A program made the translations under genes and the position numbers. Positions 4,942 to 25,560 of a DNA stretch of 64,000 bases are shown piece by piece. Every line of letters begins with the position of its first letter. Position 1 is the stretch's first letter. A model generated the notes under the pieces. That model saw nothing but the letters and a program-made list of their open reading frames with translations, was not told the DNA's origin and ran no database searches. The DNA is from a bacterium (GTDB lineage: Bacteria > Armatimonadota > UBA5829), in the NCBI GenBank assembly GCA_021371935.1, contig JAJFVF010000002.1, forward strand, positions 1-64,000, given 5' to 3'.

Positions 4942-5039
4942 GGTTTTCTCCTTTCTGAACTGGTTGACGGTCGGCTTGTGGTGGTGGAGGTTGGATGGAT
5001 GTGAGTAAAAAATGCCTTCTATAATTAGAAAGCAACGAA

Positions 5040-5101
5040 TCGGCCAAAATGTAGTTAACAGGCCATGATATTTCAGTTAAATGTTGTGCGCCTGTTGTAT
5101 T
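5040..5101 (+). repeat. XRE-element repeat, fragment D
   Basis: About 60 bases match the non-coding part of the XRE repeat found at 11.25 and 19.1 kb, in the same orientation. The best-conserved block is 5071-5098, where the three copies share TTTCAG, TAAAT and a TTGT end. No HTH coding sequence accompanies this copy. It lies 44 bases from the stop codon of the large FG-GAP gene. Confidence 0.55.
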
Positions 5102-5141
5102 CAAAGAATTTTTGCTTTCAGAATGATAGGCAGGCGGCCGA

Positions 5142-8100
5142 TTAGTAGCCTGTGATATCATTTTTCGAACGCACTATAACTGTCTTTTGCAGCTCATTGT
5201 TATACTTTTCACATGAAGAAATGCCAATTATACATACATATGACCAGTTAGGATCAAATGAAAGCCCATTAGGAGCGATGCATTTTACGGTATCCCCGGA
5301 GCCGTCATCAATAACAAACGTTGATGATTGAGTATCAAGCTGTTTTATCTTGCCCCAGGTAGTAATGAGCAGCCCAATGTTGTTGACGCCACTATTTTTC
5401 ATCCATTTATGCATCGGTTTGCCATTTGAATCAAAAATAATCCCGTAGCCCCAAACGCCCATTTGTAGTCCGTATTGCCCTCCGCCGAGTAAGCGGTTGT
5501 TAAGGCCTAAAGGCTTTATACTCCCACTTCCAGAGCGTGTATAGACAGCATTATAAATATACCGTTCTCCATTGACGTTTGTTGCAACATTGCCGCCAAT
5601 ATTCAATTCATCGCCTATATTAGGAATGGTTGCACTCTCAACTCGAATTCCACATGTTCTATCAGCATTTTCCACATAGAAGAAACCATCATATACCGCT
5701 GTGACAATCATCAATGCGCATGCAACGAACTTTCCCTCCTGGGCGAATTTAAATGCTGACGGTTGTGACAGTGCAGTTGACTGCTCTGCTGCCCAGGCCG
5801 AACCTGTTAGTGCTGTATCTATGGCTTGGACACTCCAGTAAAAATTGCGGGTGCTAGGTATTTTTAGTGTCCAAGATGTAGTGTTTGCGTAGCCTGGCAC
5901 AGGTATACGCCTCTTGCCGGTAGTCAAATCAGCTTCACCGCTATAAATATCATCCTTACCTGGTTGAGTACCGACTTTAATTACATATGTCAGGTTGGCA
6001 GAAGCTGTTTGAGCATCGAATGAGGGGGCCCAATGGAATGTGGTACCTTCACCCGATACGATAGTGGTAAGGTGAGCAGGAGCTGACGGCGGTGTATTTC
6101 GCAATCCTGTGTCATTACGATATATGAGTATATGGTTTGGATATGCGTTATCATAAGCAAGTAAATCGATATCATTGTCGCCGTCATAATCGCCGACTGC
6201 CATTATTGTAGCTCCAGATATAATCGGATCTGTTGCCATAAACTGATTGTTGCCGAGGTTGTAGAAGCAGTAAAGAGATGTTCCAATGCAACACATAATA
6301 TTCAGACTTCCACAATTGTCACAATCGGCCCATTGAATCAGGGAACTACCGGAGAGTCTCAAATTGATGTCTGAGAACTTATCACTACCATCATTATGGT
6401 AAACACGAGTATAAGAAGGGCTAACAAGATAATCGCCTGCGAGTATATCCTGACGCCCGTCACCATCATAGTCGCCCCAACACATGCTGCTGCCTCTTAT
6501 GCTGTTTTCAGTAGCAACAAATAAGCCGTTGTCGCTGCGGTAGACGTGAATTGAATAGTCAAGTGGCATTTTATAGATTGCAAGATCCAAGTCACCGTCA
6601 TTATCATAATCAGCCCAAGCTGATCCACATCCCCACGGTAGGCCGGTATCGACCTCTGCAAACGTGCCGTTATCATTGTGCAATATCTTACTTCCTGTTG
6701 CTAGATCCAAGTGCCCATCGTTATCATAATCGCCCCAAACAACTGATGCAGCACCAACTGTTGTGAATGTGACTGACTCAGTAAACTTGCCGCCTCCATC
6801 ATTATGAAATATCTTAGTGACATAACCTCTCATATTTATTGGATCTGTGGTGCAGGACATTGCTAAATCCAGCCTGCCGTCATTGTCGTAATCACCCCAG
6901 GCCAGCGCGGTGCAGCATATTGCTGGAAGATTTGCCCCCGCATCTGTAAAGGTTCCACCATTATTGCGGTAGATTGCAATACTATAGACTCCGCCACTTA
7001 CAATACCTGCCAACGCCAAATCCAGTTGACCATCATTATCATAATCACCCCAGGCGGCAGTGGAGGCGCTAAGTGTGGGCAGCCCGCATGATAGCTTTGT
7101 GAAGCTTTGTGCAGTGGCTGTATAATTCTCCGTGCTGATGTCACTAGTTATATTCTGATAGGACTTATTGGGAGGAGCAAACCAATAGCCGGGCTGGCTG
7201 GCTGTCACCTTGCCACTCCAGCCCATCGGAACACCTAATGCGTATGAACCGTCGGCATTAGTTACTGCAGAGATTCCATCATTAGTGCGGATGACTACCT
7301 GAGCTACTCCGGCACCTCCCGAAGTGCGAACATAACCTCTGATGCCTGGTAATGCAACAAATGAAGCTACAGGAGCCCAAGATGAACCTGCATACGACGT
7401 ATCAATGGATTGAACACTCCAGTACAATGGGCCGCCCGGGCAGCCTTTGAGAGGACAAGACCACGACAGACATTTTTGAGCATTGCCGATGGCAGGTATG
7501 TAACGCAGTCCTGAGGATGCGTTGGCCATTGCAGAGATTACATCATTGCCACCCTGAATTGTTCCGACACGAACATTGTAAGAAAGCCCCAAGACAGGCG
7601 TTTCGGCATCACTACCAGGCAGCCATGAAAACACCACGCGACCATCGGCAACTTTAGCAGACAAGCCTGTGGGTGGTTGAGGTAGAATATTTCCAGCAAA
7701 GGTAGTGTTTTTAATTACACAAGTGGTGCTTGTGGAATATCCCCCAAGAAGTATATCCAGGTCACCGTCATTATTATAATCTGCCCAAATACATGAGTTA
7801 TACGGAATAGACGTCCCCACATTGGTGGGTGCAAGTGTAATGCCTGAGTTTACAAATCCTGCATTATTGTCATTATGGAAAATTCCACAGCCGTTGACAA
7901 GGAGATCAAGGTCACCGTCATTGTCATAATCACCCCAGGCAACTGAATCGCACATAGATGGAAATGTGAAGTCTGAATTGGTAAAATGACCGTTTCCATC
8001 ATTGGAATAGACTCTGACAAAACCTATGTTATTTTCTTTACCTGATACAGCTAAGTCTATATCACCATCGTTGTCATAGTCGCCTGCTGCCATATACCAA

Positions 8101-14913: not shown

Positions 14914-16381
14914 CGCTTGCGCCTCCCCCGTCGTGTCGTTCCACTTTAGAGCCGTCCTTGAGGTTCTTTCTTCCCTGAGTGGCTACCATATCACCTACTT
15001 TCAAATCAGTCGGTAAGGAAACTTGGGCATAGTTTCTGTCCGTTTTGAGAATGGATATGATATGCTTTTTGGCGATATTGTCTTTGCCAATCACAAAGAC
15101 AGACTGTGTGCCTTCCTGGTCGTTTACCGCGTCCTTGGGAACCATCAGTATGTTGCACAGTCTGCCTGCAAGCACCTCACCTGTCGCAAACATGCCCGGC
15201 TTGATCTTATTACTTGCGCCTGCGATCGATATTCGCACTGAAAAGTTTCTGTTGGATGTAGAACCGGACGGATATACCTCGGTTATGGTGCCTTCTAATG
15301 CATCGTTGGGCAATGCATCTACTCTAACACTCACAGACTGGCCCTTGCTGATTTTGGCCATATACTGCTCGGAGACATCACCCTTGAAGTAAACACTGTT
15401 CAAATCAACTATCGAAGCAAGTTCCTGCCCGGCAGATACGACATTACCCGGATCGACGCTGCGAGAAGAAACGACTCCCGATATCGGAGACTTGATATAC
15501 GTGTTTCCAAGCTCGCGCCTTGCAGTATCGACGGCTGCCTTTGCCTGCAGGACAGTTGCCTTGGCAGCTGTGACCTCTTTTTCCTTGACTCTTACCTGAG
15601 CAGCATTTGCTTTGGCATCGATCAGCTCTCCCTGGGCTACATCGACATTCGACTGAGCGGCATTGACGTCTTCCTTTCGGCCGCCCTCATCGATTATGGA
15701 AAGGTCTTCGACTGCGCTGTTGTAATTGGCTTTCGCGACCAGATAATTGGCTTTTTTGACGTCGTAATCGGACTGAGAGACAGACCCCCGCTTGAGCAGG
15801 CGTTCATAGCGCTTGTAATCCGCTTCTGCCTGATCCAGTTCGGCCTTGGCTGAGTTGACCTTGTTTTGAGCCACTCTGCGCTCCTGTGAGCGAGAAGGCT
15901 GCTTTGCAAGCACAAGTTTGTTCTGTGCCGACTTCAAGGAAGCCTGAGCATTCCTGATTGCTGTCTGGGTCTGGATTTTTGTGACGTCAAGATTTGTGAC
16001 TGCCTGTTCCAGTTTTGCCTTGGCGGACTCCAGGCTGGCCTGGGCAGTCTCAAGATTGTCCTCGGCGTCTCCCTGGTCCAAGACCGCAACGACTTCACCT
16101 CTGGAGACTCTGTCGCCCTCACGGATGTTTATCGACATCAATCTGCCGGAAATTTTTGGAGAAATAACTGCGCTGTTAAGTGCGCTCAGGTCGCCGGTGA
16201 TTTGCACGGTATCGTCCATATCGCCGCGTATTACAGCGGCTGTCTGAACAGGCACACCGCTCTTCTGCCAGATTTCCTGAGTTGTGGGAGCGGGAGCTTT
16301 AGGCTTTCTTACGGCCGCCACGGCAAGCAGCGCGACAATGATTATGGCAAGCGTAACAATAACCGGTATGTTTCTTTTCAT
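14900..16381 (-). CDS. RND efflux periplasmic adaptor (HlyD/AcrA-like)
   Basis: The 493-residue membrane-fusion protein links the RND pump to the outer-membrane channel. It has an N-terminal membrane anchor (residues 5-24), a first half lipoyl/barrel region (PKISGRLMSINIREGDRVSR), a long alanine- and glutamine-rich coiled-coil hairpin (about 95-290), the returning lipoyl half (YIKSPISGVVSSRSVDPGNV) and beta-barrel domains (VSVRVDALPNDALEG). The coiled coil is longer than in AcrA, closer to HlyD/EmrA lengths. It overlaps the TolC-like gene by 4 bases (ATGA) and the pump gene by 14, so translation is probably coupled. Confidence 0.93.
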   Translation of the reverse strand: MKRNIPVIVTLAIIIVALLAVAAVRKPKAPAPTTQEIWQKSGVPVQTAAVIRGDMDDTVQITGDLSALNSAVISPKISGRLMSINIREGDRVSRGEVVAVLDQGDAEDNLETAQASLESAKAKLEQAVTNLDVTKIQTQTAIRNAQASLKSAQNKLVLAKQPSRSQERRVAQNKVNSAKAELDQAEADYKRYERLLKRGSVSQSDYDVKKANYLVAKANYNSAVEDLSIIDEGGRKEDVNAAQSNVDVAQGELIDAKANAAQVRVKEKEVTAAKATVLQAKAAVDTARRELGNTYIKSPISGVVSSRSVDPGNVVSAGQELASIVDLNSVYFKGDVSEQYMAKISKGQSVSVRVDALPNDALEGTITEVYPSGSTSNRNFSVRISIAGASNKIKPGMFATGEVLAGRLCNILMVPKDAVNDQEGTQSVFVIGKDNIAKKHIISILKTDRNYAQVSLPTDLKVGDMVATQGRKNLKDGSKVERHDGGGASDVAN

Positions 16382-18000
16382 GATTGAGCCTCCTTAACTT
16401 TCACTTTCACCTGGTCCTTATCTGCCAGCAGCTGAAGCTGGTTCAATTCCGGCTGGCTGGCTGTCGCTTTCTGAAGTTGGGCGAGTGCATTAGCATAATC
16501 AAATTGGGCATCCACATAATTGTATCTTGCCTGGGCCAGATCGGACTGCGCATTTGTAACCTCCACCCAAACAGCGACGCCCGAACTGTAACGGTCATTG
16601 GCTATTGCCAGGGCATCTTCGGCAAGTTTGACGGCATGCGCCGTAGTCTTGGTGCGAAGTGCCGCATTTTGAAGATCGAGAGCTGCTTTGCGAACTTCTT
16701 TTGCAACTGCAATTTTTTGTTTATTAAGACTTGCAAGTGAGTTTTGAACTTCTGCTCTTGCCTGTCTGACCTTTGCTTTAGTGACACCGCCGTCGCATAA
16801 GGGCACATTCAACGTAAGGCCCGCCTGCCACGATGCCTTATCTGTCGTTGTACCGCTAGGATTAAAATCATAACTGGGACCACCGCTAAGGCTCAGCGAT
16901 GGACGCATACCAGTTTTTTGCAGATTTACATTTGTTTGAGAGAGTGTGACTTGTATCTGCGCAGACTTGATTTCAGGGCGCTTTGCATAGGCCTGATTTA
17001 CACACTCCGGTATATTCACCGAATCTGTGTCTACCGGCACATCAATTGCTGCCACCTGGGTCGGATTGTTTACATCAATACCAAGCACCGCGTTAAGTGA
17101 TGACTGTGCCACACGAACATCGTTTTGAGAAGCGATAAGCTGCTGGTTCAGGTTATCGAGATTGACTTCGGCGCTTGTTACGTCATATTTGGCAACAGTA
17201 CCTTCTTTGAATTTGTCGCTGACAATGTCCAGACTCTGCTTGGCATCATCCACTGAAGCCTGGTTGACAGCCATCTGACCACAGGCTCGGAGCAGATCAT
17301 AATATGCGCTTTTCACGTCGACTATCAACTGCTCAGAAACAGACACCATAGACAAATATTCAGCCTGGAACTGATACTTTGCAATATCGGACGAGTATCT
17401 GAGTTGGTGTGAGACATCAAGCGGCAGAGTAACCGTCAGACCGGCAATATTATCAGGTGATGAAACAAGATCTACCGTTTGCCCACCTGAAGTTACCGTT
17501 TGCGTAATAGGTCCCTGAAGCGTAGCGGACAACGTTGCGTTAAAAGTCGGATTAAACTGAGCGCGTGCCTCTTCAACCGATCCTCTGGAACTCTCGACAT
17601 TGCTCAACGCAGCCTGAATCTCCGGGCTGTTCTTGAATGCGATCTCCAGAGCCTGCTCCAAGGTTATGGGCTCTCTCATGATATCCGGCACCGGCGCAGA
17701 CGAGACTTCAGGCGCTCGTGTGTTCATTGTCCTTCCGCATGAAGGTCCCGGCGTTGTAATAATATCCGATTTGCAGGGCTCTGCCAGATGTGTTTTTGCT
17801 GCCGGAATGCATATTGCTTCCGATTTCACTGCGGCCGGCTTTGGGGGAAGCTCAGGGCCTTTGTCTTGCGGACAGACCGACGGTATGATCGCCTGTGATG
17901 GGCTGAACTCCACATCCTGCGCAGTGGTTTCCGCTCCGGCGCAAGCAGAGACGACGCAAAAAACCATCGCTCCGATTGCAACTATCTTAAGTCTGGTCAT
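16378..18000 (-). CDS. TolC-family outer-membrane efflux channel
   Basis: This 540-residue outer-membrane channel subunit has a signal peptide (MTRLKIVAIGAMVFCVVSAC), a proline-rich linker to about residue 105, and then two OEP repeats. The first begins ITLEQALEIAFKNSPEIQAA; the second contains AYAKRPEIKSAQIQV. Both continue as long amphipathic helices and strands (LGLTVTLPLDVSHQL, AGLTLNVPLCDGG). The linker of about 75 residues is longer than in TolC and has several cysteines (SVCPQDKG, CIPAAK, CKSD, GPSCGR), which is unusual. It comes first among the three transport genes, just after the TetR gene. Confidence 0.92.
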   Translation of the reverse strand: MTRLKIVAIGAMVFCVVSACAGAETTAQDVEFSPSQAIIPSVCPQDKGPELPPKPAAVKSEAICIPAAKTHLAEPCKSDIITTPGPSCGRTMNTRAPEVSSAPVPDIMREPITLEQALEIAFKNSPEIQAALSNVESSRGSVEEARAQFNPTFNATLSATLQGPITQTVTSGGQTVDLVSSPDNIAGLTVTLPLDVSHQLRYSSDIAKYQFQAEYLSMVSVSEQLIVDVKSAYYDLLRACGQMAVNQASVDDAKQSLDIVSDKFKEGTVAKYDVTSAEVNLDNLNQQLIASQNDVRVAQSSLNAVLGIDVNNPTQVAAIDVPVDTDSVNIPECVNQAYAKRPEIKSAQIQVTLSQTNVNLQKTGMRPSLSLSGGPSYDFNPSGTTTDKASWQAGLTLNVPLCDGGVTKAKVRQARAEVQNSLASLNKQKIAVAKEVRKAALDLQNAALRTKTTAHAVKLAEDALAIANDRYSSGVAVWVEVTNAQSDLAQARYNYVDAQFDYANALAQLQKATASQPELNQLQLLADKDQVKVKVKEAQS

Positions 18001-18030
18001 TTCAACCTCCTACTAAGGTACTGCTTGTAT

Positions 18031-18045
18031 ACTGAACGGTCAGTC
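18031..18045. promoter_or_regulatory. Probable TetR operator upstream of the efflux genes
   Basis: ACTGAACGGTCAGTC is a near-perfect palindrome. It shares the TGAACG core and flanking ACT with the site at 18747-18762 on the other side of the tetR gene. It lies 30 bases before the start of the tolC-like gene, so the local TetR probably represses the pump genes here. Confidence 0.65.
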
Positions 18046-18126
18046 AATAAGCTGTGCAAAAAATACCTGCCACTTCCTCCAGCAGGTTGTTGTGCTCATC
18101 GGGCTGCTGATACCTCAAGCGTTGGA

Positions 18127-18726
18127 TCAGCAGTTATTGGAAATTCCATGTGCCAGAATATCCATTGCAAAATCAATGTCTTTTTCAGGATTCTGATCCT
18201 CATCTCCATGCAGATACATCATAATCAGGGAATGCATCAGCCCGTTTATCATATGCACAGCTTTTTGGGGATTCAATTCCCTAATCTCTCCCCGCTCGAT
18301 TCCCTTCTCCACTATTCTAGCTAGGATATATGAAATTTTGTTAAAATTCTCTCTGGCATGTTCGTCAAATACAAGACTCCCTTCAAGCTCCGCCCGCATG
18401 CCTAAACGACCGATATTGGGTCTGTTTATGTGCAACTGCCGAAACTGCTCAATAAAGTGCCGAATCTTCTCAAAGGCATTGCCGTTGAAATCATAAGCAC
18501 TTTCGGCAGTTCTGATAATATGCTCGCCTCCATCCTTGATAATAGAAATGTAGAGATCACGTTTATCTTTGAAGTAATAATATATTAGTGCTCGTCCTAC
18601 ACCCGCTGACTCTGTGATGTCGGTTATGGATGTTGCATCGTAGCCCTTATCAGCAAAAAGCTGCTCTGCAGCACTCATTATCCGCCGTTTCACATCAGGT
18701 TGTGCGCCAGACTTATTTGACATCAT
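18127..18726 (-). CDS. TetR/AcrR-family transcriptional repressor
   Basis: The protein is about 199 residues long. The N-terminal HTH is typical: VKRRIMSAAEQLFADKGYDA, TSITDITESAGVGRALIYYY and FKDKRDLYISIIKDGG. The C-terminal ligand-binding half is helical and ends in a region conserved in many YcdC-like repressors (LNPQKAVHMINGLMHSL). ATG 18726 is preferred because GGAGG lies 6 bases upstream; an earlier ATG at 18732 abuts that box. Similar palindromes flank the gene, so it probably represses itself and the pump operon, with release by a pump substrate. Confidence 0.9.
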   Translation of the reverse strand: MMSNKSGAQPDVKRRIMSAAEQLFADKGYDATSITDITESAGVGRALIYYYFKDKRDLYISIIKDGGEHIIRTAESAYDFNGNAFEKIRHFIEQFRQLHINRPNIGRLGMRAELEGSLVFDEHARENFNKISYILARIVEKGIERGEIRELNPQKAVHMINGLMHSLIMMYLHGDEDQNPEKDIDFAMDILAHGISNNC

Positions 18727-18746
18727 GCACATCCTCCGTATCTATA

Positions 18747-19185: not shown

Positions 19186-20760
19186 TCACAGTTCAATCTT
19201 TCTTCCTGATATAAACCCGGTACTCTGAGTTGCACTTGCAGGACGAGCACGGTCTCGCGCCCAATCTCTGAGTTTTTCAATATCTTCTTTCATCGTGCGA
19301 TACAGAGGGACCGTTGCCCGAATACTAGCCAAGAGAGCATCAGTTGATAGTTCTTGACTCTTGTCAAACACATCGAATAGCGCCGAGGAAACAGCTTCCT
19401 CAATCTCGGCTCCGCTGAAGCCATCGGATGCCTCAGCGAGTTGGGGCAAGTCAAACGTCTCAGAATTGCGCCCGCGTTTTTTGATGTGAATTTTGAATAT
19501 CTCGACTCGGTCGGTTCGATCCGGTAAGTCGACAAAGAATATCTCATCGAAGCGACCTTTGCGGAGCAGTTCCGGCGGCAGTTGAGAAATGTTGTTTGCG
19601 GTAGCTATAACAAATACTGGTGCAGTCTTCTCCTGCAGCCAGGTAATAAACGTTCCAAAAACGCGTGAAGTCGTGCCGGCATCCGAGAAAGATGAACTCT
19701 GCGTCCCTGCAAAAGCCTTCTCTATTTCGTCCATCCACAATATTGCCGGAGCGACAGACTCCGCGACGCGCATTGCCTGTCTGACATTTTCTTCGGAGGA
19801 CCCGACAAGACTCGAAAACACTCGGCCCAAGTCGAGTCTTAAGAGTGGAACGCGCCAATAAGAAGCGAGAGCTTTCGCACAAAGACTTTTTCCACAGCCT
19901 TGAACGCCGATTAGAAGTGCTCCCTTTGGGGACGGCAGCCCGAACTTTCGAGCTTCGGATGAAAAAGCTGACCGACGCTTTCTGAGCCAATCCTTAAGCT
20001 CTTCCATGCCGCCCACATTGCCGAACTCCTCAGATGCCCTGTAATATTCCAGCATTCCAGACTTGCGGATGATCTGCTCTTTCTCCGACAGGATGATCGG
20101 AACATCTTTGTCGGAGAGACCGCCTGTCTTTACGAGAGTTTTAGCGAATACGTTCTCTGCCTCGTTAATTGTCAGACCCATCGCCGCGTTAACCAGTGAT
20201 TCCTTGGAAGCATCACTCAGATTGACATTTAATCCTGCGTTTTTGTTGACCTCGTCTACGGTGTTTTCGAGCAGTTCGGTCACATCCTCGCGTCCGGGCA
20301 GGCCGAAATCGATTACACTGATCTCTTTTTCCAGTTCGAACGGCAAACGAAGAGTCGGAGAAACCAATATAAGCGTTTTATAGCTGTTTTTGAGGAATAG
20401 CGCCACCTCACGCACCTTGCGAATGACTGCCGGGTCTGAAAGATAAGGATGAAAGTCCTTAAAAACGTATATGGCGGGGTCCATCATATCAAGAACCTGG
20501 TTTAGCGCAACAACCGGATCACATGTCTTTGCATCGACATTGCGCTGTGACTGGGGTGATGTGCCATGCGGGACTATTCCACGGCAGACGGACCAGGAAA
20601 AGACTTTCTTTTCGCGCTTTGCTGCTATCTCAGCAATTGAATCCTCCACACGTGTCTCCTCCCAACTGACAACATATATTACCGGATATCTGGCCCTGAC
20701 CAATACCTCTATCTCGTCCAGTGCCGCATTCCTATTTGATTTCTTGGTTTGTTCCGCCAT
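19186..20760 (-). CDS. Ycf46-like AAA ATPase
   Basis: The 524-residue ATPase resembles the plastid/cyanobacterial Ycf46 family. An N-terminal part of about 240 residues (LVRARYPVIYVVSWEETRVE, IYVFKDFHPYL) precedes one AAA module: Walker A GVQGCGKSL near 285, Walker B ILWMDEIEKAF, sensor VFVIATANN and arginine-finger region LLRKGRFDEIFFVDLP. A helical lid follows (SDGFSGAEIEEAVSSALFD). ATG 20760 is chosen over 20781 because GGAGG lies 8 bases before it. It overlaps the radical SAM gene by 29 bases and ends the seven-gene operon that also carries DUF1257-like and DUF2997 genes, known partners of this family. The target protein is unknown. Confidence 0.9.
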   Translation of the reverse strand: MAEQTKKSNRNAALDEIEVLVRARYPVIYVVSWEETRVEDSIAEIAAKREKKVFSWSVCRGIVPHGTSPQSQRNVDAKTCDPVVALNQVLDMMDPAIYVFKDFHPYLSDPAVIRKVREVALFLKNSYKTLILVSPTLRLPFELEKEISVIDFGLPGREDVTELLENTVDEVNKNAGLNVNLSDASKESLVNAAMGLTINEAENVFAKTLVKTGGLSDKDVPIILSEKEQIIRKSGMLEYYRASEEFGNVGGMEELKDWLRKRRSAFSSEARKFGLPSPKGALLIGVQGCGKSLCAKALASYWRVPLLRLDLGRVFSSLVGSSEENVRQAMRVAESVAPAILWMDEIEKAFAGTQSSSFSDAGTTSRVFGTFITWLQEKTAPVFVIATANNISQLPPELLRKGRFDEIFFVDLPDRTDRVEIFKIHIKKRGRNSETFDLPQLAEASDGFSGAEIEEAVSSALFDVFDKSQELSTDALLASIRATVPLYRTMKEDIEKLRDWARDRARPASATQSTGFISGRKIEL

Positions 20761-21910
20761 TGTGCTTTCCTCCACATTCAAGCGCTCTTATCACATCTAA
20801 AAGCTCGCTATGTAAATGCAATATGCCGACCCGTCCATCAGGTCGAATTGTGACTGTAGTCGATATTTCGCCTTTACCTATACTCCTGTCATTACAACAA
20901 GCTGCATAAAGAGGCTTTTTCCAACTTCGAGTGTTTAGACCGTATGACTCAACAATCTCCAACGCCCGCTTTTCTTCATCAGGCAGCAATGAGCGGCACA
21001 GCGCCGGATCATCAAGAGCCCCGAAGTATGGAGTGTATTGGAACATTAGATTAAACGGCACACCCGGCAAGTTTTCGCTGACCCACTTGGCAATCGGGAT
21101 CAAGCAGCAATCAATATGTCCGGGTAACAACAAGTGTCGAATTATCAGGTCACCGGATTCGTAGGCCAGCTTAAAGTTCCGCTTTGCAATAGACACATAT
21201 CCGTTCACCGCGCCTAAGTCTTTGGCGCACGCGTTGCAGCCGAACTTAAAATCGCCGAGGTAGAGATCAACAATACCATCAAGCAGCCGCATTGTCTGAT
21301 TGGACATAAAAAAATTCGAATTCCAGACTATTAGCACCGGCGTATCAAGCAACTGAAGAGTACGCAAAATCGTTGGCAGATGGCACGTCGGCTCTCCGCC
21401 TATGAGGTTCAGGTTGATCGAGCCTTCGGCATGTCTGGCCGATATCAGCTTTGCAAAATCCTCCGGAACCACGCAATCCCCTAGATCAGAATGCTGAAGC
21501 GATTGCCAGCTATAGCAAAACTTGCATCGGAGATTACACCCCGAAAAAAACACTTCATGCGACGGAACCAGCGGAGGCTCTTCTCCCCACAGTATCTGCT
21601 CAAAGAAATAGTGACTGTCTCGTCTTATTCCACATATCCCGACTTCACCTGCCTGCCTGTTGGCCCCACACCTATGCTCACACAAATTGCACGATTCGAG
21701 CATATGACTTGCTATTTCCGATTTCACATCCAACAAAGAAGTCGAACCGGCATGGTTGCTGTCAATCGAATAATCGAGTGCCGATTCGTGGATATGCCAA
21801 AGCTCTTCTACCGCTGCATACCTCTCAACGCTAATATGCCGGTGCGCTGACTGCCAAAAAGCAGGCAATCGTTTTCCAGTGGCGATATGCTTGTAGTTAT
21901 CCAATTCCAT
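20732..21910 (-). CDS. Radical SAM protein (PflX/COG1313-like)
   Basis: This 392-residue enzyme has the radical SAM iron-sulfur motif CNLRCKFC near residue 123. Upstream is a cysteine-rich stretch CNLCEHRCGANRQAGEVGIC near 73-92 that typifies PflX/COG1313 proteins, often labelled putative pyruvate-formate-lyase activating enzymes although this activity is generally unproven. The barrel core is recognisable (INLNLIGGEPTCHLPTIL, VDLYLGDFKFG). The first about 70 residues lack known motifs. It overlaps pilT by 14 bases and the Ycf46-like gene by 29, so it is a firm member of the operon. No glycyl-radical enzyme is nearby, which argues for another substrate. Confidence 0.85.
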   Translation of the reverse strand: MELDNYKHIATGKRLPAFWQSAHRHISVERYAAVEELWHIHESALDYSIDSNHAGSTSLLDVKSEIASHMLESCNLCEHRCGANRQAGEVGICGIRRDSHYFFEQILWGEEPPLVPSHEVFFSGCNLRCKFCYSWQSLQHSDLGDCVVPEDFAKLISARHAEGSINLNLIGGEPTCHLPTILRTLQLLDTPVLIVWNSNFFMSNQTMRLLDGIVDLYLGDFKFGCNACAKDLGAVNGYVSIAKRNFKLAYESGDLIIRHLLLPGHIDCCLIPIAKWVSENLPGVPFNLMFQYTPYFGALDDPALCRSLLPDEEKRALEIVESYGLNTRSWKKPLYAACCNDRSIGKGEISTTVTIRPDGRVGILHLHSELLDVIRALECGGKHNGGTNQEIK

Positions 21911-22982
21911 CTGTAGAAACCGCAGCGCGCCTATCTTTTAGCGAACGCATTTCAGCCGGCACTTTGGCACGCGTCGCCGCAGTGTCGTATGTAATAATGC
22001 CCTGTTGATAGAGGTCACGCAAGCTGGAGTCCATGCTTTGCATATTTTGCGATTGACTAGTGGCGATGACGTTATACAGCGACTGAGTCTTGTTTTCTCT
22101 GATTATATTTCTGACGGCAGGATTAGCTATCATTACCTCAGTTGCCAATATGCGTCCGGGTTTATCCACTCTAGGCAGCAATTGTTGTGATATCACGGCT
22201 TCAAGGCTGGAGGCCATTTGCATGCGGACTTGTGTTTGTTGGGCAGGTGGGAAAACATCGATTATTCGGTCAACAGTCTGAGATGCATCAGGTGTATGAA
22301 GAGTGCTTATGACGAGATGTCCTGTTTCAGCCGCAGTCAACGCAGTAGCAATAGTCTCGAGATCCCTCATCTCACCAACTGCGATCACATCAGGATCTTG
22401 TCTCAGTATATGCACCAACGCTTTGCTGAATGAGTGGGTGTCGGTATGCACCTCCTGTTGAACAATTATACTCCGCTTGTTCGGGTGTACATACTCAATC
22501 GGGTCTTCGACCATAATGATCTTGCACCGTCTATCCCGATTGATAAGGTCGATCATTGAGTTCAGAGTGGTTGTTTTGCCGGATCCGGTCGGACCTGTAA
22601 TCAGTATCAAGCCCGATGGTTTCCTAGTGAGTTCTGCAGCGACAGGAGGTAAATTCAACTCCTCAAGGCTGTAGATATGCGTCATACCCACGCGCACAGA
22701 TGCTCCCAGTTCGCCTTGCTCGAAGTATATGCTGACTCTGAAGTATCCTACTTCAGGAATCTTCATGGAATAGCACAGCTGCAAGTCCTTAGTAAGCGTC
22801 TGTTTCTTCTCCTCAGAAAGTGTGTCAAGCAGCAGCCTACTAGTATCGGCGGGAGTCAGCGAATCGCCATTAGCCACAATTATCTCGCCGTTTATCCTCA
22901 AAACCGGCGGAACACCAACCATCAGATGCAGGTCCGATGCGCGTTTATTTACAGCTATCTTTAGTAAATCGATAAGTTCCAT
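21897..22982 (-). CDS. pilT: PilT-family type IV pilus retraction ATPase
   Basis: This hexameric ATPase normally drives pilus retraction from the cytoplasmic face of the inner membrane. At 361 residues it has the usual PilT length. Motifs in order: ASDLHLMVGVPPVLRINGEI, Walker A ITGPTGSGKTTTLNSM, the His/Asp boxes around VQQEVHTDTHSFSKAL, Walker B VIAVGEMRDLETI, and TGHLVISTLHTPDASQT. No other pilus gene is in the window; it sits inside the Ycf46-type operon, 7 bases from the signal-peptidase-like gene. An alternative is a PilT paralogue with a secretion role. Confidence 0.93.
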   Translation of the reverse strand: MELIDLLKIAVNKRASDLHLMVGVPPVLRINGEIIVANGDSLTPADTSRLLLDTLSEEKKQTLTKDLQLCYSMKIPEVGYFRVSIYFEQGELGASVRVGMTHIYSLEELNLPPVAAELTRKPSGLILITGPTGSGKTTTLNSMIDLINRDRRCKIIMVEDPIEYVHPNKRSIIVQQEVHTDTHSFSKALVHILRQDPDVIAVGEMRDLETIATALTAAETGHLVISTLHTPDASQTVDRIIDVFPPAQQTQVRMQMASSLEAVISQQLLPRVDKPGRILATEVMIANPAVRNIIRENKTQSLYNVIATSQSQNMQSMDSSLRDLYQQGIITYDTAATRAKVPAEMRSLKDRRAAVSTDGIG

Positions 22983-22989
22983 TCTTGTC

Positions 22990-24048
22990 CTATTTTCCTG
23001 TTGCTGATTTTCTGCCTATTATTTTCCGATGTTCGGGTGGTCCTGTTATTGCGATCACTCTTCCCAAAATGTTCGATCTCGATATCGTACCGGCATCAAG
23101 TATATCTCGAACACTTGGGGCATAATTGAAGTTTGGGACAATCCAATATTCGTTTTTGGCAAGAGCCTTGGCGCACTTGTTATATGATGAAGGCGCAAGG
23201 GCTTCTCCATGTGCTCCTGCAATGGGAGGAAGTCGAACATGCGCGATTTGTCCATTGACGCGTACCTTGCTGCCTATCTCTATTCTGTCACCGGGTGAGC
23301 CTACCAATTGACCGATGGATAGGACATGATAGTCGTTCCACCGAACTAAACCCACTACTGTGTCGCCTCGTTTCATATTGCCGGCAGACCATAGCAGTAA
23401 GGTATCACCACGTTTGAGGTCTGTAGAATAAGGCTCAGCAACTACCGTCATTACTCTCATAAATGGAGCAGCCGCAATCCGAAGAACCCAGTAATTCCCA
23501 CAATATAAACAAAACACTATCAGTCCAATGCCTATCCACACATAAGATCGATTGCTGATATCTCTCCTGCCAGGCCGAAGTGTGCAGATTGCTGCCGACA
23601 TCGAAAACATCGACAATGCCAGCAGGCAATACATAAACCAGCCTGAAACTGATGATCTGATAAAGGTGACTGTGAGCACAACCAGAACCATAGAGATGGT
23701 CAAAAGCTGCAAACCAGTCAGCTTTCGACCAACGATGTAGATATGTGCAATCCCCGGTACTGCAGAGAGCAATATCAGTCCAAACGTTTTAGGGGTTAGC
23801 CAGGTTCGCTGACAACTAAGTCTTTCCAACACAAACTTTGCCCGCTGGCTTGATCTTTCCAGGTCACGCCTCAGCATTCCAAATCCCCGGACGTTTTCCA
23901 GAGTCATACCTACTTTTTGACCAAGGGTACGGTCTTTTGCTCTTGGCGGCATAATACTTTCGCCGGCTACAGTTGTCAGCGACGTTGAGCACACGGCACA
24001 CTGTTTTCTACCCGGCATGTTCTCAAAACCGCAACTCGGACACTGCAT
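22990..24048 (-). CDS. Zinc-ribbon membrane protein with an inactive-looking signal peptidase I fold
   Basis: The 352-residue protein opens with a zinc ribbon (MQCPSCGFENMPGRKQCAVC). Several hydrophobic segments follow (about residues 90-195). A C-terminal domain is laid out like signal peptidase I (S26): LKRGDTLLLW, VGSPGDRIEI, VRVNGQ, EYWIVPNF and ILGRVIAITG match the GDxVLV, GLPGDxVEI, NG, GDN and IxGRA boxes. The usual catalytic serine aligns to Pro in PYSTDLKRGD, and the usual Lys-Arg before the GLPGD-like box is IGQLVG, so both catalytic residues appear to be missing. It may bind rather than cleave N-terminal segments. The genes on either side are 4 and 7 bases away. Confidence 0.7.
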   Translation of the reverse strand: MQCPSCGFENMPGRKQCAVCSTSLTTVAGESIMPPRAKDRTLGQKVGMTLENVRGFGMLRRDLERSSQRAKFVLERLSCQRTWLTPKTFGLILLSAVPGIAHIYIVGRKLTGLQLLTISMVLVVLTVTFIRSSVSGWFMYCLLALSMFSMSAAICTLRPGRRDISNRSYVWIGIGLIVFCLYCGNYWVLRIAAAPFMRVMTVVAEPYSTDLKRGDTLLLWSAGNMKRGDTVVGLVRWNDYHVLSIGQLVGSPGDRIEIGSKVRVNGQIAHVRLPPIAGAHGEALAPSSYNKCAKALAKNEYWIVPNFNYAPSVRDILDAGTISRSNILGRVIAITGPPEHRKIIGRKSATGK

Positions 24049-24052
24049 AGTA

Positions 24053-24274
24053 TTAGGTCCCTAGAGTTTTTGTGTGAGCCTGGGTGTGATCTATGATAGA
24101 AACATCCTGCCCCGGTTCATAAAACTCGCTCGTTAATTGCTGATCAGACACTTTGCCTATAGTACTAAATATCTGCACATAGTCGAGGCATTTCTTTCCC
24201 TTGGCGCCCTTGACCTTTACCTCGACTTGCCCTTTAGCGCTAATTTCTATTTCAAGTTCATGCTTATTTGCCAT
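24053..24274 (-). CDS. DUF2997-family small protein
   Basis: This is a 73-residue protein starting MANKHELEIEISAKGQVEVK. The pattern of two beta strands and the VKGAKGKKCLDYVQIF motif is that of DUF2997. These proteins are encoded next to DUF1257 (Ycf35) and Ycf46-like AAA genes in other bacteria, and the same three occur in this operon. ATG 24274 has GAGGGG upstream; a much longer in-frame extension to 24589 overlaps the TPR gene and is not credible. The C-terminal tail (residues 45-73) is variable. The function is unknown. Confidence 0.75.
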   Translation of the reverse strand: MANKHELEIEISAKGQVEVKVKGAKGKKCLDYVQIFSTIGKVSDQQLTSEFYEPGQDVSIIDHTQAHTKTLGT

Positions 24275-24291
24275 TTCGACCCCTCGCCTGA

Positions 24292-25077
24292 TTATCTTGC
24301 TCCAAACAATCGCCTGATTGCACTCATCAATTTTGACATCGGTCCACGCTCTTCTATGCTGCGCAAAGCATCTTGGGCTTTTATATAACTTGGCTTGGCA
24401 GCAAGCGCTCTTCGATATGCGATCTTTGCTTCGTCGATTTGCCCGAGCGCCTCCGAGCATTTTCCGATCCAATACCAGCATGTAAATCGTCCCGAGTCCA
24501 GTTTCACAGCCTGGTTCAAGTGTTCGAGAGCCTGGTGGTAGCACTTGCGAATAATGTAAGCTCTTGCTATCCAAAAACGTATAGACCACTCACTCGAAGA
24601 AATCTCGATAGCTTTAGCAAAGCATGCTTTCGAGTTGACCTCGCTTGTCAACAAAAGCACTTCACCTCTTGCAATCCAGGAGTATGCTCCAACTCCTTGG
24701 CTGGAAAAAGCTGAGTCTGAGTATCCAATGGCAGCACCAAACCTACCGGACCTAGCCTCCGCAACCGCTCTTGCCGAAAGAATAGAAGCTGATTTCGGGA
24801 ATTTTTCAAGCGCTCTGTTCGACCACGTCAGAGCTTCAGGAAGTTCTCCAAGCTCTATTAGGCAGCGAAGCTGTCCGAACCAGCCTTCCTCCATTGTTAT
24901 GTCATACTGGAGTGTTCTGGAATAGAACGCTAGTGCCTTCTCATAGTCATCTTCAGCGAATGCTTCATCGGCCATTGACAGATAGTAGTGCTGATCGATG
25001 ACGCCGGAATACTCCGGGCTAACCTTTGGCTTCTCAGGCTCCTGGTCGCCCATCTCAAGGTGTTCGAATCTCCCCAA
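24292..25077 (-). CDS. TPR-repeat protein
   Basis: The 261-residue soluble protein is built mainly from tetratricopeptide repeats, for example YYLSMADEAFAEDDYEKALA, LPEALTWSNRALEKFPKSA, YHQALEHLNQAVKLDSG and IDEAKIAYRRALAAKPSY. Five or six repeats span about residues 28-245. There is no signal peptide or membrane segment, so it is a cytoplasmic scaffold by inference. It lies 17 bases before the DUF2997 gene and 15 bases after the DUF1257-like gene, so it probably helps assemble the complex encoded by the operon. Confidence 0.8.
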   Translation of the reverse strand: MGRFEHLEMGDQEPEKPKVSPEYSGVIDQHYYLSMADEAFAEDDYEKALAFYSRTLQYDITMEEGWFGQLRCLIELGELPEALTWSNRALEKFPKSASILSARAVAEARSGRFGAAIGYSDSAFSSQGVGAYSWIARGEVLLLTSEVNSKACFAKAIEISSSEWSIRFWIARAYIIRKCYHQALEHLNQAVKLDSGRFTCWYWIGKCSEALGQIDEAKIAYRRALAAKPSYIKAQDALRSIEERGPMSKLMSAIRRLFGAR

Positions 25078-25092
25078 CTACGTTCCTTTCGG

Positions 25093-25560
25093 TCAAACAT
25101 ATTTTGTTACATGTATCCTTATCGCCTGGTCTGCTGTCATTTCCTCATCTGTTACAGTAAATCCCTGGTTCTTGAGTTCGGTGACCACTTTATTGTATGC
25201 GTACTGCTGGGTTACCTTGCCAACAAGTTCCTGCCCGATTGCCTGCAACTGCTCATCCGTCTTGTTTTGCCCTGAAACATGTACTGTGCATCGGCCATTA
25301 GCAGACCTGCTGAATGTGGCCGTTACATCGCCGTTTGCTATCGTGAACTGGCTTTCACGAGCCATAGACTCTGCGACTATTTGGCTGCTTTCTATCGGTA
25401 TCTCTACACGGCAGTCAGATTCACTGTTAGTATCAACGACGCCTGCATGCTCGTGGGACAAGGCTTTATAGCCTAATGCACCTGCTGCTGCGGCGATTGC
25501 ACCACACATAACTGGCCATCCAGCAACTACCATCGGAGCAACAACAAATACTACAGACAA
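25093..25560 (-). CDS. DUF1257 (Ycf35)-like protein with N-terminal membrane segment
   Basis: The TTG at 25560 is taken as start because GGAGG lies 8 bases before it; a frame from 25644 has no such site. The 155-residue product begins SVVFVVAPMVVAGWPVMCGA, a hydrophobic segment to about residue 30, and ends with QQYAYNKVVTELKNQGFTVT and a beta strand. This resembles the C-terminal half of DUF1257/Ycf35 proteins (RYAYHxVxxxLxxQGF). With DUF2997 and Ycf46-like partners the operon matches the conserved Ycf35/DUF2997/Ycf46 association. It is the first gene of the seven-gene operon. Confidence 0.65.
   Translation of the reverse strand: MSVVFVVAPMVVAGWPVMCGAIAAAAGALGYKALSHEHAGVVDTNSESDCRVEIPIESSQIVAESMARESQFTIANGDVTATFSRSANGRCTVHVSGQNKTDEQLQAIGQELVGKVTQQYAYNKVVTELKNQGFTVTDEEMTADQAIRIHVTKYV

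Follow-up and report, generated by a model that had tools for sequence, protein, structure and literature searches.

A recurrent seven-gene operon combining a Ycf46-type AAA protein with a PilT-family ATPase, and a candidate terminal docking peptide

Closest described systems and operon layout

Plastids and many bacterial phyla have kept Ycf46, Ycf35 and DUF2997, proteins with no molecular function assigned. In cyanobacteria, duf2997, ycf35 and fed7 make up a gene cluster (cluster g; PMC4284462). The gene slr0374, encoding Ycf46, belongs to a stress-responsive operon, and its inactivation lowers EcaB activity according to PMC7496141, which cites Jiang et al. 2015. Here we describe a seven-gene operon on the minus strand of contig JAJFVF010000002.1 of an Armatimonadota genome (GCA_021371935.1), in an analysed stretch of 64,000 nucleotides (hereafter, the window). 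The operon encodes AAA, DUF1257 and DUF2997 proteins homologous to cyanobacterial and plastid Ycf46 and to the products of the duf2997-ycf35-fed7 cluster. In contrast to that cluster, no ferredoxin is encoded among its seven genes, a PilT-family ATPase, a TPR protein, a pseudo-peptidase of family S26 and a radical SAM protein are added, and the DUF1257 protein is a hydrophobic variant. Near its N-terminus the TPR protein carries a short RFxxLE peptide, a motif not seen beside cyanobacterial AAA genes.

The operon also recalls several well-described machines. Its AAA protein shares a predicted D1-D2 arrangement with the double-ring unfoldase Cdc48/p97 and may share the unfoldase activity; it differs in having a first ring without a Walker A motif and no N-domain, Ufd1/Npl4 or ubiquitin system, and recognition would take place via a terminal peptide. 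ClpX and ClpA are AAA rings that read short terminal peptides (ssrA and other terminal degrons) on unrelated proteins. The operon AAA ring would likewise recognise short terminal peptides, although it belongs to a different clade, has no linked protease, and would read a genetically encoded peptide, present at either protein end and kept in every partner. With the type IVa pilus retraction ATPase PilT, the operon PilT shares a TIGR01420 match and the catalytic motifs, but it falls in a separate, operon-tied clade and no pilus genes adjoin it. The likeness to signal peptidase I (S26) consists of a weak S26 fold match and a GxPGD box; unlike the enzyme, the operon protein lacks the catalytic Ser and Lys and carries an extra zinc ribbon and a multi-pass region.

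The seven open reading frames (ORFs), called mechanically, form a single run from 25560 to 19186 and are listed in transcription order, with window positions:

25093..25560, minus strand: DUF1257 (Ycf35-type) variant, TTG start (PF06868, 2.4e-8; alignment, hydropathy)
24292..25077, minus strand: TPR protein, TTG start, beginning M-G-RFEHLEMG (TPR Pfam match, 6.5e-18)
25051..25071, minus strand: candidate tag at the N-terminus of the TPR protein, R-F-E-H-L-E-M
24053..24274, minus strand: DUF2997 protein, 73 amino acids (aa), ATG start (PF11211, 1.9e-13)
22990..24048, minus strand: protein with zinc ribbon, about four hydrophobic segments and degenerate S26 domain, ATG start (PF10502, 5.6e-5; DZR, 0.009)
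21897..22982, minus strand: PilT-family ATPase of an operon-specific clade, ATG start (TIGR01420, 3e-128; tree)
20732..21910, minus strand: radical SAM protein, ATG start (PF04055, 1.5e-10; Fer4_12, 6.9e-7)
19186..20760, minus strand: Ycf46-type AAA ATPase, ATG start (PF00004, 4.3e-29)

The genes are separated by four gaps of 15, 17, 4 and 7 bases and joined by two overlaps of 14 and 29 bases. This spacing, and the placement of all seven genes on one strand, had been given in the original prediction, made by a model from the sequence, and held throughout when the coordinates were re-checked. Shine-Dalgarno-like runs lie 5' of the TTG codons of the DUF1257 (GAGGAGG) and TPR (AAAGGA) genes and of the ATG codons of the DUF2997 (GAGGGG) and AAA (GGAGGAAAG) genes.

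Recurrence of the gene set and its protein families

The AAA protein was used as a query on named genomes, many of the genomes surveyed being metagenome assemblies, and profiles of the seven proteins were then applied to the resulting 80 loci; further loci (L108, L111, L114, L115) came from the 27 genomes with DUF2997 among 291 of Armatimonadota. All seven families occurred together in four Planctomycetota loci (L009, L010, L011, L017) and in the Armatimonadota genome G048 (L108). Six families were present at L013 (Chloroflexota) and at L114 and L115 (Armatimonadota), with the radical SAM gene not found at any of the three, and six were also present before the contig end at L008, from a relative in the window's order. 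Partial sets were found at L111 (Armatimonadota; at least five families) and on the truncated contig of L015 (Planctomycetota; AAA, TPR and PilT). The gene order was permuted between loci (e.g. L108: radical SAM-AAA-DUF1257-TPR-DUF2997-S26-PilT). Since membership was kept while the order was shuffled, the set appears to be a functional unit, and its recurrence across phyla places it beyond chance. The comparisons support a conserved, undescribed system in at least three bacterial phyla. Neither the seven-gene set nor the RFxxLE motif was found in the literature searched, most subscription papers being outside that search.

It had been predicted that the operon joins two groups of genes into an undescribed system. 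The proposal gains backing from the cross-phylum recurrence and the dedicated PilT clade described below: PilT, radical SAM and S26-like genes do accompany the other four elsewhere, in Planctomycetota and Armatimonadota. The radical SAM gene, predicted as a regular member, has that place in the complete copies, where it adjoins the AAA gene, but it is the least constant of the seven. A known defence system was considered and ruled out, since PADLOC returned partial, domain-level matches to the AAA and radical SAM proteins only (IetA, 84 bits; viperin, 38 bits) and none at full length. At L017, the DUF1257 gene of the operon is duplicated in tandem (5034-6005). The planctomycete operons start with a gene for a rhomboid-family membrane protein (L010, 1867-2541; L017, 1725-2408; L009, 8233-8898).

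The window AAA protein was 47-49% identical to Ycf46 of Leptolyngbya and other cyanobacteria over residues 16-512 (about 480 aa), covering both domains. The second domain contains a Walker A motif (GVQGCGKS, at 286) and a Walker B motif (ILWMDE, at 341), whereas the first module is a degenerate AAA ring domain without Walker A. An AlphaFold2 model (predicted local distance difference test, pLDDT, 89.5) matched the D1-D2 rings of p97/Cdc48 in Foldseek over approximately 570 columns (E to 1e-24, TM-score up to 0.67), predicting two stacked rings as in Cdc48/p97, the first of them dead. In a preliminary tree, the operon AAA proteins grouped together with AAA proteins of Verrucomicrobiota and Sumerlaeota nested among them, suggesting more than one gain or loss of the module. 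The window genome (G000) encodes a second Ycf46-type AAA protein (C9:230594-232051; L163), which is 58% identical and has no DUF1257 or DUF2997 gene adjoining it.

The operon PilT scored 427.8 bits against TIGR01420 (cut-off, 319.1) and contains Walker A and B and an AIRNLIRE-like motif. In a tree with six other PilT-family rows from the window genome and one from Sumerlaeota as outsiders, the 12 operon PilT proteins formed one clade (support 100/99). Pilin, PilB, PilC and secretin genes were absent from the operon and its relatives, so that PilT is the sole tie to pili; the pilus link of the original prediction keeps a PilT above the family cut-off and lacks all else. The 3.5 Mb window genome encodes six PilT-family proteins above the cut-off, i.e. 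five besides that of the operon, and several PilB/GspE-like ATPases. A housekeeping pilus retraction gene is therefore an unlikely identity for the operon PilT, given its own clade and the five others.

The S26-like protein has a conserved N-terminal zinc ribbon (CPSC...CAVC) and several conserved hydrophobic segments. Its Peptidase_S26 match (5.6e-5) was barely above the cut-off, and it had no sequence match in the PDB. Where true enzymes have SSSMEPT and IKRIIGLPGE, the window protein has VVAEPYS and IGQLVGSPGD. The catalytic Ser and Lys were missing from the operon copies compared (Lys loss in L008, L010, L013 and L108), which rules out an active signal peptidase; the signal-peptidase-like label given to the protein in the prediction survives as a weak fold match. 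The L114 copy is much shorter. The protein predicted to be DUF1257-like is likewise so in part. It matched PF06868 with 34.6 bits (cut-off, 22.2) at C-terminal profile positions 62-102 only (41 positions), and alignment and hydropathy placed a hydrophobic segment in lieu of the canonical N-terminal helix MSHFxTxxTKIxDxxxLxxAL, with the C-terminal half kept. We make no claim on its fold, because the AlphaFold2 model was of moderate confidence (pLDDT 70.6) and the best PDB match was not significant (E 0.02). The DUF2997 protein scored 50.5 bits against PF11211 (cut-off, 24.1). The radical SAM protein has a CxxxCxxC motif (CNLRCKFC) and an N-terminal four-cysteine cluster (CxxC..C..GxC), the latter presumably resembling PflX/COG1313; its cysteines were kept in six operon copies.

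A terminal RFxxLE peptide near Ycf46-type AAA genes

The N-terminal peptide of the TPR protein, which the original prediction had passed over, offers the strongest hint at the way in which the AAA motor would be recruited. Eleven of the 12 operon TPR proteins carried N-terminal RFxxL[ED] (window, L008-L011, L013, L015, L017, L108, L111, L114; at L013 the reading frame has no standard start codon), and the twelfth (L115) had RIERLEL instead. In the window, the TPR protein was the only one with a terminal RFxxLE. In all, RFxxLE was terminal in about 11 unrelated families, whose genes lie close to a Ycf46-type AAA gene or in genomes that mostly carry one. It occurred on unrelated folds at opposite ends, and the residue after it was usually L, I, F, V or M. 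The proposed tag and its occurrences near AAA genes include:

MGRFEHLEMGDQ: peptide bearing the proposed RFxxLE tag
N-terminus: zinc-ribbon/transmembrane proteins of Omnitrophota, twice in L014 and L019
N-terminus: NHL propellers
N-terminus: SNF2 helicases of Chloroflexota
C-terminus: rhomboids of the planctomycete operon (L010, L017; weaker in L009)
C-terminus: protein of a Spirochaete contractile-injection-like cluster
C-terminus: pentapeptide-repeat protein (L055, on the strand opposite to AAA)
C-terminus: TPR/propeller protein of approximately 570 residues

The rhomboid C-termini in L010 and L017 read GFVDLE and RFADLD. The Treponema/Spirochaete contractile-injection-like cluster (L036, 1968-13021; L058) encodes a Ycf46-type AAA protein and a DUF2997 protein, and contains proteins ending in RFSNLEL or RFKNLEL. 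At L036, it includes tail sheath, tube and baseplate OB proteins, with a radical SAM gene directly before the AAA gene.

The motif was enriched close to AAA genes. At 99 AAA loci, same-strand proteins encoded up to 3 kb from the AAA gene had a terminal RF..LE in 16 of 436 cases, and all other proteins in 3 of 1070 (Fisher, 8e-7). When R, F, L, E and two wild cards were arranged in every possible way (360 permutations), RFxxLE ranked first (mean ordering, 0.35), and it did so again at 40 held-out AAA loci (18 matches; mean, 0.41). Among the held-out families, an NHL protein followed AAA directly (MSDRFDFLELGD), and a TPR protein tagged at its C-terminus was also encoded downstream of AAA. Raw DNA codon scans for C-terminal RFxxLE were rejected as statistics, being mostly noise with forward counts close to the control, and were used for finding candidates only. 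A C-terminal scan of 25 genomes reached via loci of other phyla yielded no convincing tail above chance.

RFxxLE was also found on proteins encoded away from AAA genes. A J-domain-like protein of the window genome (C19:210143-210550; L151, L155), unlinked to AAA genes, ends in EGRFGKLEL. Within the window's class, its close homologues occurred only in six genomes of the same family that carry the second-type AAA protein, and all six (6/6) had the C-terminus RFGxLEL. Across Armatimonadota, 148 of the 162 genomes with a clear J homologue had the AAA protein (odds ratio 11, p 1e-16, with counts taken by hand and phylogeny ignored in the statistic). The 14 J-positive, AAA-negative genomes comprised four with AAA fragments and one whose J protein is tail-less (G230), most others being incomplete assemblies. 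By a strict rule, the tail was retained in 44 of 50 sampled J homologues and was mostly altered or slightly internal in the remainder. Squalene-hopene cyclases of one Armatimonadota family bore a C-terminal RFANLEV extension (L189, L192, L193, L195-L198), and a zinc-ribbon protein ended in RFNHLEL or RFRHLEL in two related genomes, one of which (G048) has the full operon.

A proposed remodelling module and competing explanations

We tentatively propose, with chances just short of evenly balanced, that the operon encodes a membrane protein-remodelling module in which the Ycf46-type AAA protein docks on a terminal RFxxLE peptide followed by a hydrophobic residue, with PilT as a second motor. The AAA motor would be Cdc48/p97-like, with two stacked rings, the first of them dead. 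Docked by its N-terminal RFxxLE, the TPR protein would tether it to a complex comprising DUF2997, the DUF1257 variant, which would insert into the membrane, and the zinc-ribbon/multi-pass/pseudo-S26 protein. The PilT-type hexamer would be the second motor of this complex. One component is the probable substrate of the radical SAM enzyme, which would be dispensable in some lineages. The sequences themselves show the conserved gene set, the PilT clade, the dead peptidase and the conserved terminal motif with its enrichment beside AAA genes, and predict the Cdc48-like fold; we infer direct binding of the AAA protein to the tag, assembly at the membrane, a remodelling outcome and the radical SAM target. 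The peptide might act as a degron, in docking or in assembly. It is conceivable, doubt somewhat outweighing confidence, that Ycf46-type AAA proteins in general are widespread Cdc48-like remodelers reading an encoded terminal RFxxLE plus hydrophobic residue, the operon being a membrane version with its own PilT. Their clients might then include J-domain, NHL, TPR, SNF2, rhomboid, hopene cyclase and contractile-injection-cluster proteins, a list to be read with the scales likewise tipped somewhat towards doubt. A short, mutable peptide on probable partners would turn the question of function into a binding or pull-down test and make partners predictable from genomes, and the operon itself would be an undescribed two-motor membrane module.

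Several observations weigh against this proposal. The matches at the held-out loci fell mostly into two families already met in the discovery set (L024, L165), so that the pattern was replicated with few new families added, and loci inside one phylum are not independent. The tag is not family-wide: besides its absence beside cyanobacterial AAA genes, it was seen at Myxococcota-like loci in a single opposite-strand protein (L055). Two genomes with the J tail that are >90% complete (G128, G177) gave no Ycf46-type AAA protein. Lastly, the operon contains no protease, pilin or substrate gene that would mark its output.

Under one alternative, the reader of RFxxLE would be a different factor (e.g. 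the Hsp70 machine or a common adaptor) and the AAA gene just a frequent neighbour. The J-domain family bears the tail phylum-wide, including in those two near-complete genomes; yet J presence tracks AAA presence, and the motif clusters close to AAA genes, on J-less proteins of several phyla, often in the gene directly 3' of AAA. We regard this alternative as unlikely. Similarly improbable is a type IV pilus accessory, in which the AAA protein and its partners would control retraction of the cell's ordinary pilus by the operon PilT. The PilT score and motifs agree with such a role, as do the PilB-like ATPases encoded in the window genome beside other PilT proteins, but that genome already has its five other PilT proteins, the operon PilT stands in a separate clade, and neither the operon nor its relatives encode the remaining pilus components.

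We give still less credit to peptide modification, in which the radical SAM protein would act on DUF2997 or DUF1257 and the AAA protein, pseudo-peptidase and PilT would handle the product. The gene for a radical SAM protein with an extra N-terminal cysteine cluster does adjoin AAA in the complete copies, as does that for a different radical SAM protein in the Treponema cluster. Against this stand the three loci at which the gene was not found, the wide occurrence of DUF2997, DUF1257 and AAA without a radical SAM gene, and the lost peptidase dyad. A chance gathering of unrelated genes in one strain would fit the sporadic presence of DUF2997 in the window's phylum (27 of 291 genomes of Armatimonadota). 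We consider the chance of this negligible, and already refuted by the recurrence of the set in three phyla with shuffled order and by the monophyly of its PilT; a single-strain accident is ruled out by the same recurrence.

Upstream of the operon, about 300 bases separate it from a small helix-turn-helix-like ORF, and about 450 bases lie between its downstream end and a TetR gene; scans for a promoter and a terminator of the operon were no better than shuffles. The genes on that side (window 16378-18732), which encode the TetR regulator and an outer-membrane efflux protein, are apparently unconnected with the operon. The record JADZEW010000035.1 (L026), named Methanoregulaceae archaeon SJ84, matches Armatimonadota L304, and its name is apparently wrong. 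At 24 cyanobacterial loci (L042-L088), a small protein of 105-150 aa is encoded just before Ycf46. The one copy tested had no Pfam match; the N-terminus recalls ribbon-helix-helix regulators, the C-terminus is CPxC zinc-ribbon-like, and many copies end in LVPC.

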